From: Paracoccaceae bacterium
GTDB lineage: Bacteria; Pseudomonadota; Alphaproteobacteria; Rhodobacterales; Rhodobacteraceae
Length of the DNA stretch: 35,476 nt
Assembly (NCBI GenBank): GCA_030065075.1
Contig: JASJDQ010000005.1
Location: 1-35,476, forward strand
Direction: 5' to 3'
The notes beneath the pieces are model-generated. The model saw nothing but the letters and a program-made list of their open reading frames with translations. It was not told the origin of the DNA and did not search any database. Made by a program: the position numbers and the translations under genes. Positions 30,529 through 34,996 of this stretch are shown here, in pieces; positions within the stretch are counted from its first letter, which is position 1, and each line of letters starts with the position of its first letter.

Positions 30529-32067
30529 TTAATTCATCCAACGCGCCCAGCCATTTTCGTAGTAGCGCACCAGCGGATGCGACTGGATGGTGTTCCGCTC
30601 TGTGTCCAACGGGCCGCTATCGGGCGCGAAGGTGACCATGGCGGGCCACATCCTGGGGCTGTAGAACCGGAGACCCTCGGGCAGCGCTCGCGGATTGGCA
30701 AGGGGCGCGTGGCTGGCGAGAACGAAGCCCCAGTCGCCGAAGCTGGGGACATAGGCGTGATAGGGCGTCGTGATCAGCGCTGTCCCGGGTCGCGACGGGT
30801 TCGAGGTTTCGGTCAACGTGCGGTGGATCGACCAGAACGCCTCGCGCGCGAAAACGGGCGAACCGGCTTGCGTGACAAGGGCACCGCGCGGCGACAGGCG
30901 CTGGCTGAGGGCTGCGTAAAACTCGGCGGAATAGAGCTTGGACACAGCGAAATCGCGCGGGTCGGGCAGATCGGCGATGATGGCGTCGAAGGTGTCTGGG
31001 TTGTCGCGCACCCACGTCCAGGCATCCTCGTTGACGATCGTCACGCGCGGGTCGTTCAGCGCATTGGCGTTGAGGCCCGTCAACGTGGCGTTGGAGGCGA
31101 AGAGCCGGGTCACCCTTGGGTCCAGATCGACGAGCGTGATCTGCTGCACATCGGGCCATTTCAGCACTTCGCGTGCCGCCATGCCGTCGCCACCGCCGAA
31201 GATCAGGATATTTGCGCGCCTGGGCACGCGCGACAAGGCAGGGTGAACAAGTGCTTCGTGATAGCGGTGCTCGTCCAGCGTGTCGAACTGGATCGATCCG
31301 TTCAGGAACAGGCGGTAGCGGTCCTTCCAGCGGGTGACTACGATGCGTTGGTAAGGCGTTTCCTCGGCCAGGATGACCTCGTCATCGAAGAACGCCGCAT
31401 CGGTCAATGAGACAAGGCGATCCGACCAAACAAGACCTCCGAGGCAGGCGGCAAGGCCCAGCACCCATGTGCCGCGCAGCGCCCAGCCGATGCGGTCGCG
31501 AAAGACCCAGACGGAAATGCCCGCGACCACGAGGTTCAAGAGGCCGAAGGTCAGGCTGGCCGCCATCAATCCCAGTTGCGGGACGACCAGCAGCGGGAAG
31601 GCGATCGCGGCCACAAGCGCGCCGGCATAATCGGCTGTGAGCACATTCGAGAGCGTGTGGCTCATCGCCTTCCGCTCTTGCAGGATGCGCGTGATCAGCG
31701 GGATTTCGAGCCCCGAGAGTGTGCCGATGGCGATGACCAGCGAAAATAGTATGGCGTGCAGCCCGTCGAGGTAGCCGTAGGCCAGGAACAGGAGCGGCGC
31801 GGAGAAGCCGCCGACGATGCCAAGCAGGATCTGGCTGAGCGTGAAACCGCGCTCGGCGCGCGTCACGAAGCGCGAGGCCCAGGCGCCCAGACCCATCGAC
31901 GTCATAAAGATGCCGATGACCAGCGAGAACTGGGTGACGCTGTCGCCCAGAAGGTAGCTGGAAACAGTGCCCGCGATGAGTTCATAGACAAGGCCGGCGA
32001 CCGCGACCGTGAAGGTCGCCGCCAGAAGCCAGAGGGCCTGGCCGTCGCGTGCGCGCGGTGTGCTCAT
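30529..32067 (-). CDS. Membrane-fused spermidine synthase-like protein
   Basis: A 512-residue protein. Residues 1-215 hold about seven membrane helices; residues 225 onward are a spermidine synthase-like (aminopropyltransferase) domain. Key positions are Q239 in TPYQRIV, DEHRYHEAL (265-273), IFGGGDGMAARE (289-300), LVDLDPRV (312-319, with Asp where soluble enzymes have Glu), NEDAW (346-350) and ADLPDP (365-370), so the site for decarboxylated S-adenosylmethionine and the catalytic Asp appear intact. The normal reaction moves an aminopropyl group to a polyamine; substrate here is unknown. ATG 32067 overlaps the DUF350 stop by 4 bp. No speD gene is in the window. Confidence 0.88.
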   Translation of the reverse strand: MSTPRARDGQALWLLAATFTVAVAGLVYELIAGTVSSYLLGDSVTQFSLVIGIFMTSMGLGAWASRFVTRAERGFTLSQILLGIVGGFSAPLLFLAYGYLDGLHAILFSLVIAIGTLSGLEIPLITRILQERKAMSHTLSNVLTADYAGALVAAIAFPLLVVPQLGLMAASLTFGLLNLVVAGISVWVFRDRIGWALRGTWVLGLAACLGGLVWSDRLVSLTDAAFFDDEVILAEETPYQRIVVTRWKDRYRLFLNGSIQFDTLDEHRYHEALVHPALSRVPRRANILIFGGGDGMAAREVLKWPDVQQITLVDLDPRVTRLFASNATLTGLNANALNDPRVTIVNEDAWTWVRDNPDTFDAIIADLPDPRDFAVSKLYSAEFYAALSQRLSPRGALVTQAGSPVFAREAFWSIHRTLTETSNPSRPGTALITTPYHAYVPSFGDWGFVLASHAPLANPRALPEGLRFYSPRMWPAMVTFAPDSGPLDTERNTIQSHPLVRYYENGWARWMN

Positions 32068-32288
32068 CCCGAGAGGATGACGGCGCCAATCAGAAGCGAG
32101 ATCGAGATGAACAGGCTGCCGATCAGGATGGCGATAGCGTTGTTTTGATCGTCTTCGATCTCTTTTCGGAGCGAGAAAGGCGTGAGCCATTCTATTGCCT
32201 TCCAACTGATTCCCAAAAGGACCAGTCCAAGGATGGTGTAGAACACCGTGGCCACAACCTCGGCCAGGATCACTTCGCTGAAGATCAT
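32064..32288 (-). CDS. DUF350 family small membrane protein
   Basis: A 74-residue protein of two membrane helices (ATVFYTILGLVLLGISWKAI and AIAILIGSLFISISLLIGAVIL) separated by a polar stretch (PFSLRKEIEDDQNNA) with the N-N-A-x-A-I pattern seen in DUF350 (E. coli YjfL family). ATG 32288 has an AGGAGG ribosome site 6 nt upstream that overlaps the stop of the previous small gene. It is coupled to the spermidine synthase-like gene. From memory, DUF350 genes are often next to polyamine synthase-like, DUF4178 or PspA-like genes; the role is unknown. Confidence 0.85.
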   Translation of the reverse strand: MIFSEVILAEVVATVFYTILGLVLLGISWKAIEWLTPFSLRKEIEDDQNNAIAILIGSLFISISLLIGAVILSG

Positions 32289-32297
32289 CTTATCCTC

Positions 32298-32459
32298 CTA
32301 TTTGACACCGCGCCCACCGACGCCATAGCCGCCACCGGGTGATCCGGCACGGGTTGAGATAACGGAACTGCTTTCGCCCCAGACGCCGCGCATGGCGGCA
32401 TAGCTGGCGGCGCCGACCATAGCGGCAACCAGAACGACGAGGACAACGCGCGCCACCAT
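32298..32459 (-). CDS. 53-residue membrane protein with a Gly-rich tail
   Basis: A very short gene: ATG 32459 to TAG 32298. One membrane helix (VARVVLVVLVAAMVGAASYAAM, residues 2-23) is followed by a polar tail ending in GSPGGGYGVGGRGVK. It overlaps the stop of the DUF4178 gene in an ATGA junction and ends where the DUF350 ribosome site begins, which strongly supports a real gene. No family recognised; a small subunit of the membrane complex encoded here is plausible. Confidence 0.7.
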   Translation of the reverse strand: MVARVVLVVLVAAMVGAASYAAMRGVWGESSSVISTRAGSPGGGYGVGGRGVK

Positions 32460-33730
32460 CAGTCGTCGCTCCAATCGCTGCCCGCCATGCGGCGCGTGTT
32501 GTGAACGACCGGGCCGACCATCTGGGCAAGACCGAGAACACCGAAGACCACCGCCGTAATCCAAAGCCAGAAAGTGGTGTTGACACCGTGTGAAACGGTG
32601 ATCTGGTATCTGGTGGCTTCGGTGCCACCGGCCCAATCGACGACAGCTTGCGTGTTATTGATGCTGAGTTCGTAGGTGCCCGGCGGCAAGTGAAGCCGTG
32701 TTCGCACGCGTTGTGATCCTTCGGACCAGTCCGATCCCTTGTAGTATTCAACTCCGCGCTCGAACTCGGCGACTGGTTCACCTTCGCCGTCCAGAAGCTC
32801 GGCTTCGAACCACGCCCAGCTGTTGTAGGCATTGGCCCAGATCTCGATCTCGGTCAACCGACCTGCATTCGTGATTTCGAATGGCAGGGTGACGTCGCGC
32901 GAAATCCCGACCGTCTCTGATTGCGAGATGGTCTGGCCCGAACCTGAGAGCATGAGTCCGATCAGCAGGGTGACGGCGGAAGCCACAAAGAAAACGGTGC
33001 GTGCGAACGTCGCGAAAGGGGATTGATGATAGACCTGAAGCGGATGGACGCCGCGCGGCTTGGGCCATCTTCCGGCGGGCACGTCGAAGCTTGCGAGGGT
33101 CGCGGCTTGGTCGGGCAGGCTGACAAGTTCATATTCGCGTTCCTGACCACTTTCGATGATGTCCAACATCTGGTGGTGGCCAAGTAGAGAGACATAGCGC
33201 GCACTTTCGTCCAGCGATGGCCGATAGTTGAACTCGCCTTCTATGAACGTCGGCTTGATGCGACCAGAGCTGTAGTAACGGAAGGACTGGCCGCCAAAGC
33301 TCACGCTGGGTCGGCGTTCGGCATTTTCGATGAAGGATTCGCTTAGGCTGGTGGGCGACGACGCCATGCGCTGCTTTCGGGCATAGGTGACGAAGCCGTC
33401 TTCCACCGTCAGCCAGGCATACCCGTGAGTCGGGGAGTAGAGCTGGTGGTTGACCCATTCCCACCGCTTCCCGTTGTGGAATTCGACCCAGGCCATCGTG
33501 CCGATCACTGTGAATCCGACGCCCCAAAGCTCCCCTGTCATTCCGATCGAGAACGGTGAGGCGGGCCGTTCGAGGTCGCGGTACTTGGCCAATACCTTGT
33601 AGTCGTCCTGCGCGTCCAGTTCCGCGCCACAGTAGGAACAGATATGCACACGCACCCGACCACCGCCTAGTGCATCGAGCCCGGCGCCGCATTCGGTGCA
33701 GTTGAAGGAAGAAGCGCGCGCGGTGCTCAT
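32459..33730 (-). CDS. Zinc-ribbon, DUF4178 and periplasmic beta-domain membrane protein
   Basis: A 423-residue protein. Two CxxCG knuckles (residues 11-15 and 31-35) form a zinc ribbon. Residues about 60-200 match DUF4178 (GTMAWVEFHNGKRWEWVNHQLYSP, AWLTVEDGFVTYARK). Then come a membrane helix at about 243-263, a beta-rich periplasmic part at 264-384 (FEITNAGRLTEIEIWANAYN, LPPGTYELSINNTQ), which looks like a small sandwich domain, and a second helix at about 386-408. So a cytosolic zinc/DUF4178 sensor-like part is linked to a periplasmic domain. ATG 33730 overlaps the upstream stop by 4 bp. Function unknown. Confidence 0.85.
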   Translation of the reverse strand: MSTARASSFNCTECGAGLDALGGGRVRVHICSYCGAELDAQDDYKVLAKYRDLERPASPFSIGMTGELWGVGFTVIGTMAWVEFHNGKRWEWVNHQLYSPTHGYAWLTVEDGFVTYARKQRMASSPTSLSESFIENAERRPSVSFGGQSFRYYSSGRIKPTFIEGEFNYRPSLDESARYVSLLGHHQMLDIIESGQEREYELVSLPDQAATLASFDVPAGRWPKPRGVHPLQVYHQSPFATFARTVFFVASAVTLLIGLMLSGSGQTISQSETVGISRDVTLPFEITNAGRLTEIEIWANAYNSWAWFEAELLDGEGEPVAEFERGVEYYKGSDWSEGSQRVRTRLHLPPGTYELSINNTQAVVDWAGGTEATRYQITVSHGVNTTFWLWITAVVFGVLGLAQMVGPVVHNTRRMAGSDWSDD

Positions 33731-34335
33731 GACCGTCGCACGTCCCAGGCGTCGATCCAGGACCCGATGCTCCAGGCTTCGCCGCCATCCCAGCGCTCGC
33801 ATGTCGCGATTTCACCGTCCAGTCCGGTGAGGTCGAAGTAGAGATGCGTCTCGCCCACCGCCAGCGCTTCGGGAAACTCACCTTTGACCGCGCTGCAGGT
33901 CGCGGTTTCCGCTTCGGTCACGCGAAAGGGGATGCCGTTTATTTCTGTAGCGGCCCCCAGGGCAGGCCGGAACCCTTTGGGCCAGGCAGAGCGGGGAAGT
34001 GTCCGCTCAAGCGCATAATCGCCCTCATCGACGCTGAGCCAGTAGCCATCGCCCTGCTCGTTCAGACACCAGAATTCGTCCCACCAGCCGCGGCCATAGT
34101 CGAACTGCGCTTGGCCCACCGGCAGATAGAACTGGCCCGTGACTTCGATCTGAACACCGAGTTCGACCATGGACGGCGCGTCCTGAATCACACCGCCCGA
34201 TCCGGCCAGACGAAAGACATCATCTTCCAATACCGAGGTCGACCCGCAGTGCTCGCAGGTTATCATGCGCGTCTTATCGAACTGCCGGAAGAGCGCGGCG
34301 CCGCAGTTTTCGCAACTATGCTTGGACTGGGTCAA
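33727..34335 (-). CDS. Zinc-ribbon DUF4178-like protein
   Basis: A protein of about 202 residues with two CxxCG knuckles (residues 8-12 and 27-31), then a DUF4178-like domain (QFDYGRGWWDEFWCLNEQGD, YWLSVDEGDYALER) related in layout to the next gene's product, but with no membrane helix. The frame is open to 34539, but that reaches into the divergent DUF3228 gene. No ATG suits; TTG 34335 keeps both zinc knuckles and avoids the overlap, so I use it with caution. It is the first gene of the five-gene operon; its stop overlaps the next start. Confidence 0.75.
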   Translation of the reverse strand: MTQSKHSCENCGAALFRQFDKTRMITCEHCGSTSVLEDDVFRLAGSGGVIQDAPSMVELGVQIEVTGQFYLPVGQAQFDYGRGWWDEFWCLNEQGDGYWLSVDEGDYALERTLPRSAWPKGFRPALGAATEINGIPFRVTEAETATCSAVKGEFPEALAVGETHLYFDLTGLDGEIATCERWDGGEAWSIGSWIDAWDVRRS

Positions 34336-34429: not shown

Positions 34430-34996
34430 ATGCGCATCGCGATAACCGACTTCGCATTGCGGAACTGGCAGGAGGGCGCCAGCACCAAGATCGAAGGCAT
34501 GACACCTGACGAATTGGTGAAGCTCTGCAACGCGGCCACGCGCCCTTTGGCGGAGGGCTATGCCCCCTTTTGCAAGCACCTGTTCCTTGAAAATACCTCG
34601 CCGACGAAGGCCGCCTTTGCCGAGATCACGGAGGCGACGCAGCCCTATCTGCGATCGGGCTATGTGGCGCGTCGGGAAGGCGAACGCGCGGTTCTGGAAC
34701 GCTGGTTCGAGGGGCTTGAGGCGACGCGGGCCGCATGGCTGGACGTGATCCTTTACAGCTACGACCAGCTTCTGAAAGAGGCCGCAGATTTTACTGAAGA
34801 ACAGGACGTGCCCGACTGCGACTGGGGCATCGTGTCGATCATTGGTGTGCTGGAACCGGTCGAGCCGCCGATGCCACCGATCACGCAGATGCGGAACGCA
34901 TTGGGCCGAGAAGCCGGGGGGTCGGGCGTGGCACTGGACCCGGAGGCCTATGACCAGGCGGTCGCCTTTTGGGACCGACACGCGGCCATTCGGTAG
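34430..34996 (+). CDS. DUF3228 family protein
   Basis: A 188-residue soluble protein of the DUF3228 type: IAITDFALRNWQEGASTKIEG, PLAEGYAPFCKHLFLENTSP, YLRSGYVARREGERAVLERWF, LDVILYSYDQLLKE, and DCDWGIVSIIGVLEPVEPPMPPITQMRN near the end. The start ATG 34430 is preceded by GGAGGA with 6-7 nt spacing. Divergent from the zinc-ribbon gene (94 bp apart), and its stop directly abuts the trhO stop. Biochemical role unknown; it could be unrelated to the polyamine-type operon. Confidence 0.88.
   Translation: MRIAITDFALRNWQEGASTKIEGMTPDELVKLCNAATRPLAEGYAPFCKHLFLENTSPTKAAFAEITEATQPYLRSGYVARREGERAVLERWFEGLEATRAAWLDVILYSYDQLLKEAADFTEEQDVPDCDWGIVSIIGVLEPVEPPMPPITQMRNALGREAGGSGVALDPEAYDQAVAFWDRHAAIR

Follow-up and report, generated by a model that had tools for sequence, protein, structure and literature searches.

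Operons that combine a spermidine synthase (SpdSyn) fused to seven transmembrane (TM) helices with DUF350, DUF4178 and a lipoprotein, often together with PspA and a CesT/Tir-like protein, are described in Ravi 2024 (PMC11237479), as are variants with an S-adenosylmethionine (AdoMet) decarboxylase, a polyamine oxidase or a band-7 protein. The same work suggests that these systems monitor polyamines or aminopropylate other substrates. Clusters of DUF350, DUF4178 and membrane SpdSyn genes are widespread among bacterial phyla. Here, we analyse one of them, an operon of five open reading frames (ORFs) on the minus strand, spanning positions 30529-34335 of a 35,476-nucleotide stretch (hereafter the window) of Paracoccaceae bacterium DNA (GenBank assembly GCA_030065075.1, a draft that is 83% complete; contig JASJDQ010000005.1, positions 1 to 35,476). 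In order of transcription, genes 1 and 2 encode zinc-ribbon DUF4178 proteins, gene 3 a tiny membrane protein, gene 4 a DUF350 protein and gene 5 a membrane-fused aminopropyltransferase.

Two other systems invite comparison. In Escherichia coli, the DUF350 gene yjfL sits with the pspA-like yjfJ, the DUF1190 gene yjfM and yjfC, and both YgiC and YjfC are annotated as peptide-spermidine ligases; an earlier note on the window, made from its letters alone, had pointed to this E. coli neighbourhood, and the parallel is real and stronger than was claimed there. In filamentous fungi, an N-terminal histidine methyltransferase (NHMT) also carries a seven-TM domain, reported from these fungi only, and has Ile in place of the acidic residue of the GxG(D/E)G motif (PMC10349129).

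The association of these gene families is already published and is not new. The consulted parts of Ravi 2024 (PMC11237479) describe neither a rule for a C-terminal Lys nor a periplasmic catalytic domain, and the word 'lysine' is absent from its main text; the Lys rule presented below and the idea of periplasmic aminopropylation appear new with respect to the literature consulted. On balance, sequence comparisons and structural models incline us to the reading that the operon encodes a membrane-embedded machine that would aminopropylate the C-terminal Lys of the gene 3 product in the periplasm.

Recurrence of the operon and its link to decarboxylated AdoMet

Conservation of the operon was followed in a sample of 121 genomes from the same order as the window (Rhodobacterales). 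DUF4178 is present in 17 of them, DUF350 scores above the cut-off in exactly those 17, and in all 17 the long membrane aminopropyltransferase adjoins DUF4178 and DUF350. The five-gene order is kept in these 17 genomes while the flanking genes vary, and the five genes thus form a self-contained unit. The grouping is beyond chance, and the phyletic co-occurrence that the earlier note had put forward as a check is borne out.

The genome of the window contains one protein with a Spermine_synth domain, the gene 5 product, and one copy of speD, located on another contig and with its ESH cleavage motif intact; the earlier remark that speD is missing holds for the window and not for the genome. All 17 operon genomes possess speD, versus 9 of the 104 others (Fisher 1.4e-14). 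Seven of these nine have a classical soluble speE near speD; of the remaining two, one (G077) has a second type of membrane SpdSyn cluster and the other a fragment at a contig end. In other phyla, speD usually lies within the operon. This co-occurrence ties the enzyme to decarboxylated AdoMet (dcAdoMet) and suggests, if only indirectly, that gene 5 uses this donor.

The second type of cluster in Rhodobacterales (L074:4599-8495, L075:2378-6178, L076:8007-11806) consists of speD, a rhomboid-GNAT fusion or GNAT alone, a Lys-tailed protein (...SGGPRxGK) and a membrane SpdSyn, with neither DUF350 nor DUF4178 nearby.

The AlphaFold model of gene 5 (predicted local distance difference test, pLDDT, 91.4) shows TM helices followed by a SpdSyn fold, for which Foldseek retrieved the Thermus aminopropyltransferase 1uir (E 6e-17, TM-score 0.75 by target length). 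The soluble domain covers roughly residues 226-512. Catalytic and charged residues were surveyed in 97 membrane SpdSyn sequences, and acceptor-side positions in 126. The motifs YQ, Q, DE..YHE, GGGDG, DxD, DA and DxPDP are invariant in the 97, single conservative changes aside, and gene 5 retains all catalytic residues. Relatives of solved structure include triamine/agmatine and thermospermine-type aminopropyltransferases, which accept longer acceptors. Arg268 was considered as a carboxylate-binding mark for a terminal Lys because it is invariant in a set of 52 sequences, but it is Ile or Tyr in 15/126, mostly in Alteromonadales-type operons, and was dropped.

The terminal lysine of the partner protein

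The gene 3 product ends in GVK, and in the alignment of its Rhodobacterales counterparts Lys is terminal in every copy. Membrane SpdSyn loci from other bacteria were collected from scans of named genomes and of the window's phylum, and were read in Proteobacteria, Campylobacterota, Acidobacteria, Gemmatimonadetes, Bacteroidota, Elusimicrobia and Myxococcota. Cultured carriers include Silicimonas algicola (L077), with an enzyme 74% identical, and Chitinophaga eiseniae (L145). For the mycobacterial genes Rv2598-Rv2601, taken as relatives, a search of the literature yielded nothing of use. A redundancy filter at 97% identity left 127 membrane SpdSyn, of which three on cut contigs were left out (n=124); false automatic picks of Lys tails (L105, L117, L145, L188, and extra ORFs in L182/L183) were set right by eye. 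A Lys-tailed protein is encoded in or beside the operon in 116 of the 124 and elsewhere in the genome in six, and none was found for two. When the enzymes are clustered at 70%, 64 of 66 have such a partner. As background, Lys is terminal in 8.1% of 775 genes in the same loci, and a comparably rich Lys tail occurs in 4 of 494 distant genes (~1%).

Among 82 small proteins, with 76 distinct tails, the terminal Lys is the sole invariant residue of the last 12. It is encoded by AAA in 59 relatives and by AAG in 23, so it is the residue that is conserved and not the codon. A stretch rich in Gly, Ser, Arg, His and aromatic residues precedes it (GRVK, YGK, GGK, YHK, RGK). The carriers are single-TM proteins of 45-70 aa, Gly-rich proteins of 57-100 aa, lipoproteins of 250-390 aa, C-terminal extensions of DUF4178 in some Proteobacteria and, in the second Rhodobacterales cluster, a 195-aa protein; across phyla the equivalents of the tiny protein are non-homologous, yet end in Lys. 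A Lys-tailed protein and the enzyme are common to all cluster types, speD being either part of the cluster or located elsewhere. At L154 (Variovorax), L161, L163, L165 and L167, the DUF4178 protein itself runs through a C-terminal TM helix into the Lys tail (...YSSGGGHK, ...SGGSHK).

The ends of the DUF1190 proteins that accompany ATP-grasp ligases differ. In E. coli, YgiB ends in ...SMGG and YjfM in ...HWGG, and ten DUF1190 genes beside ATP-grasp ligases in other genomes end in GG in six cases, otherwise in four, and in Lys in none. Ligases of the YgiC/YjfC type depend on a carboxylate, and small residues stand at the end of their partners; the pattern suggests that the tail end follows the chemistry of the partner enzyme.

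Compartment, proposed reaction and alternatives

Seven TM helices are predicted in the gene 5 model (pLDDT 91), two of which DSSP reads as one long helix. Across the 97 sequences, Lys plus Arg residues average 2.1/3.2/2.8 in the cytosolic loops and 0.3/0.4/0.8 in the outer ones, a positive-inside pattern. Together, the helix model and the charges assign the N terminus to the cytosol and make a periplasmic catalytic domain likely. The lipobox carriers, and the fusions to DUF4178 proteins with cytosolic zinc ribbons, put the Lys tail in the periplasm. Outside Rhodobacterales, a flavin adenine dinucleotide (FAD)-dependent amine oxidase is encoded 3' of the enzyme, with twin-arginine signal motifs recognized by eye in at least eight loci (for example TRRRFLRGFGGG, SRRAFLARTGAG and MERRAFLAAAG). 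Enzyme topology, tail carriers and an amine oxidase of the twin-arginine translocation (Tat) type thus point to one and the same compartment, the periplasm. The loci concerned are L101, L108, L115, L117, L128, L137, L141 and L155, some with a lipobox-like Cys.

Aminopropyltransferases require an amine acceptor, and the side chain of Lys is an aminobutyl arm, akin to putrescine and cadaverine. That an anchor protein always ending in Lys accompanies the enzyme suggests attachment to this protein. In the scheme that we infer, dcAdoMet would come from SpeD, whose gene is on another contig in this genome but belongs to the operon itself in most other phyla; the seven-TM aminopropyltransferase would move the 3-aminopropyl group of dcAdoMet, on the periplasmic side, onto the side-chain amine of the tiny protein's C-terminal Lys; and the product would be a polyamine-like tail facing the periplasm. 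DUF350, with both zinc-ribbon DUF4178 proteins, may build the membrane complex and, around the enzyme, a scaffold with cytosolic and periplasmic faces. Either the seven-TM domain or DUF350 is a candidate for bringing dcAdoMet to the periplasm. Outside Rhodobacterales, the Tat-type amine oxidase may oxidize or remove the aminopropyl group. Whether this amounts to a widespread bacterial post-translational modification, with a dedicated supply of dcAdoMet and, in many phyla, a Tat-type amine oxidase that could reverse or further process it, seems to us evenly balanced.

The earlier note had proposed a complex that makes or attaches a polyamine. Its observations are confirmed and its interpretation is partly supported: the polyamine part gains from speD in 17/17 operon genomes, the invariant dcAdoMet-binding and catalytic residues and the Lys-ended partner, and can be sharpened to attachment. 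The part in envelope stress, and the sensing through DUF4178 or the periplasmic domain, that it also put forward stay conjectural. The Lys rule and the periplasmic catalytic domain had been missed.

Several points weigh against periplasmic aminopropylation of the tiny protein. We know of no AdoMet-type donor in the periplasm, and no exporter of dcAdoMet was identified. For the tiny proteins, charge bias by itself is weak. Two genomes (L105/G447 and L195/G121) have the enzyme and no Lys-tailed gene where one was looked for, and about 16 odd loci were sorted by hand with a search more flexible than that used for the others. The Lys tail could also be a docking or assembly signal instead of a substrate. 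Finally, nspC, the mark of the carboxyspermidine route and thus of this order's other path to spermidine, is found in 1 of the 17 operon genomes versus 45 of the 104 others (p=0.003), a rarity that would fit an enzyme with a second task in supplying free polyamine. Systems based on nspC and on speD are almost mutually exclusive, and G058 alone among the listed genomes has both.

The main rival, for which we see a limited chance, is that the membrane is where free spermidine or a related polyamine is made, to serve the cell or the periplasm, with the Lys-tailed protein as a subunit, an anchor or a pseudosubstrate regulator that inserts its Lys into the active site. The donor-side and catalytic motifs (GGGDG, DxD, DxxD) match those of soluble SpeE and are mostly common to both, and since classical soluble speE was not found in 15/17 operon genomes, nor nspC in 16/17, the enzyme could be the only route to spermidine in most of them. 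However, G016 and G097 also carry a soluble speE, and G058 carries nspC; moreover, about 50 of the 121 genomes have neither speD nor nspC, so that a known spermidine route is not obligatory. On the acceptor side, the enzymes are unlike SpeE: P368, F443 and G444 are found in 126/126 membrane enzymes and S403 in 125/126, whereas soluble enzymes have, at these positions taken together, T, Y, mostly A, and V. A periplasmic catalytic domain and carriers that are alike in their terminal Lys alone would also suit a protein acceptor better.

It is less probable still, and in our view doubtful, that the terminal Lys is a recognition or assembly signal, read by DUF350, by a protease or during sorting, independently of aminopropyl chemistry. 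Where the enzyme is encoded apart from DUF350, the Lys-tailed gene does adjoin the remote DUF350 (5 genomes). The second Rhodobacterales cluster, however, has the enzyme together with speD and a Lys-tailed protein and lacks a nearby DUF350, and the DUF350 systems with an ATP-grasp ligase have a tail ending in GG and not in K. Least of all do we expect the SpdSyn-like domain to be a methyltransferase or another AdoMet enzyme acting on a secreted protein, as the fungal histidine methyltransferase of lytic polysaccharide monooxygenases does with the same architecture and substrates on the secretory path (PMC10349129); this reading was rejected because the acidic residue that the fungal enzyme lacks is here Asp294 in 126/126 and because speD accompanies the operon in 17/17.

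Aminopropylation of the terminal Lys, if true, would account for the presence of speD in many genomes devoid of soluble speE, and for a spermidine-synthase domain bound to the membrane. The Lys rule names one substrate residue and one mass shift, which reduces an open problem to a single mass-spectrometry experiment; a positive outcome would reveal an unknown kind of protein modification.

Operon parts and comparison with known systems

Table 1. Features of the operon and their positions in the window
Feature	Positions	Strand	Description
Gene 1: zinc ribbon (2 x CxxC) + DUF4178	33727..34335	-	202 aa; TTG start; without TM helix, predicted cytosolic
Gene 2: zinc ribbon + divergent DUF4178	32459..33730	-	423 aa; TM 238-262, beta-sandwich 266-383, TM 387-414
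Gene 3: single-TM protein MVARVV...STRAGSPGGGYGVGGRGVK	32298..32459	-	53 aa; candidate acceptor
AAATAG: C-terminal Lys codon and stop of gene 3	32298..32303	-	Read directly; proposed modification site
Gene 4: DUF350, two-helix short form	32064..32288	-	74 aa; half of the Pfam model
Gene 5: seven-TM domain + aminopropyltransferase (SpdSyn fold)	30529..32067	-	512 aa

All five ORFs were found on one strand and in the order given by the earlier note (Table 1), and its family assignments hold. Gene 1 matches Pfam DUF4178 (PF13785) with 63.5 bits (3e-17), above the gathering score of 25. The window copy of gene 2 falls below detection by this model, but orthologues in the same slot rise above it, and the majority of the 17 operon genomes show two DUF4178 matches side by side. 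The periplasmic beta domain proposed for the second DUF4178 protein agrees with a confidently predicted layout of two TM helices around a beta domain (pLDDT 91.8). Foldseek gave partial matches only, including a GOLD-type beta-sandwich; being generic and poorly superposed, they allow no conclusion on the identity of the DUF4178 fold. The gene 3 product matched no Pfam family, and no lipobox Cys was found in it. Gene 4 matches PF03994 (47.6 bits, 2e-12, profile 3-65 of 133), and gene 5 matches Pfam Spermine_synth (6e-35) and NCBIfam NF002956 (624 bits, cut-off 472).

Of the three ATGA overlaps counted earlier, two are present, at the junctions of genes 1/2 and 4/5; the third, between genes 2 and 3, is a one-base TGATG overlap. 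Genes 3 and 4 are separated by 9 nt containing a GGAG-type ribosome site. The operon is flanked by unrelated ORFs, a divergent DUF3228 gene (34430-34996) on one side and a convergent AHSA1-type gene on the other; the short gap before the DUF3228 gene presumably carries both promoters.

Operons of other phyla vary. In many Acidobacteria, Gemmatimonadetes and Bacteroidota, speD is the first gene, and at L106 and L118 an SPFH/Band-7 protein with a C-terminal zinc ribbon is encoded before it. In Campylobacterota, the gene 3' of the enzyme resembles, by eye, nspC (carboxynorspermidine decarboxylase; L094:10505-11578, L096:9032-9931, L112:3783-4838). A 600-kb plasmid of Alteromonas mediterranea (L157:8971-15629) groups SpdSyn, speD, a toxic anion resistance protein, DUF4178, a 510-aa lipoprotein with a C-terminal SSGK, and a long DUF350.

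Among described systems, group 2 of Ravi 2024 (PMC11237479) shares with the window a seven-TM spermidine synthase, DUF350 and DUF4178 in one operon. It differs in having PspA/CesT-Tir in the operon, neither of which is in the window operon (the genome beyond the operon was not searched for PspA), and an eight-TM DUF350 with a lipoprotein, whereas the window has a two-helix DUF350 of 74 aa, a tiny non-lipoprotein and two DUF4178 proteins. The fungal NHMT resembles gene 5 in joining a seven-TM domain to a SpdSyn-fold domain and acts on secreted proteins in the endoplasmic reticulum; unlike what is proposed for gene 5, it transfers methyl groups to an N-terminal His, and it lacks the GxG(D/E)G acid (PMC10349129). 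SpeE and the Thermus and plant aminopropyltransferases (1uir, 6bq2) share the fold and the donor-side residues of gene 5, which differs from them in its seven-TM domain, its likely periplasmic location and its altered acceptor side.

Polyamine-type extensions of protein lysines are found in hypusine (eIF5A) and in the silaffins of diatoms. Deoxyhypusine derives from spermidine and not directly from dcAdoMet, and to our knowledge neither case concerns the C-terminal Lys of a bacterial membrane protein. The E. coli YgiC/YjfC systems with DUF1190 are alike in their DUF350 (yjf operon), the Gly/Ser-rich tail of the partner and polyamine chemistry on a peptide. None of the five window products is an ATP-grasp or DUF1190 protein, and DUF1190 was not found in this genome; where E. 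coli pairs an ATP-grasp enzyme with a GG tail, the window pairs an aminopropyltransferase with a K tail. If our reading is true, the operon would stand as a transferase-based equivalent to the ATP-grasp system, which places spermidine on peptides.

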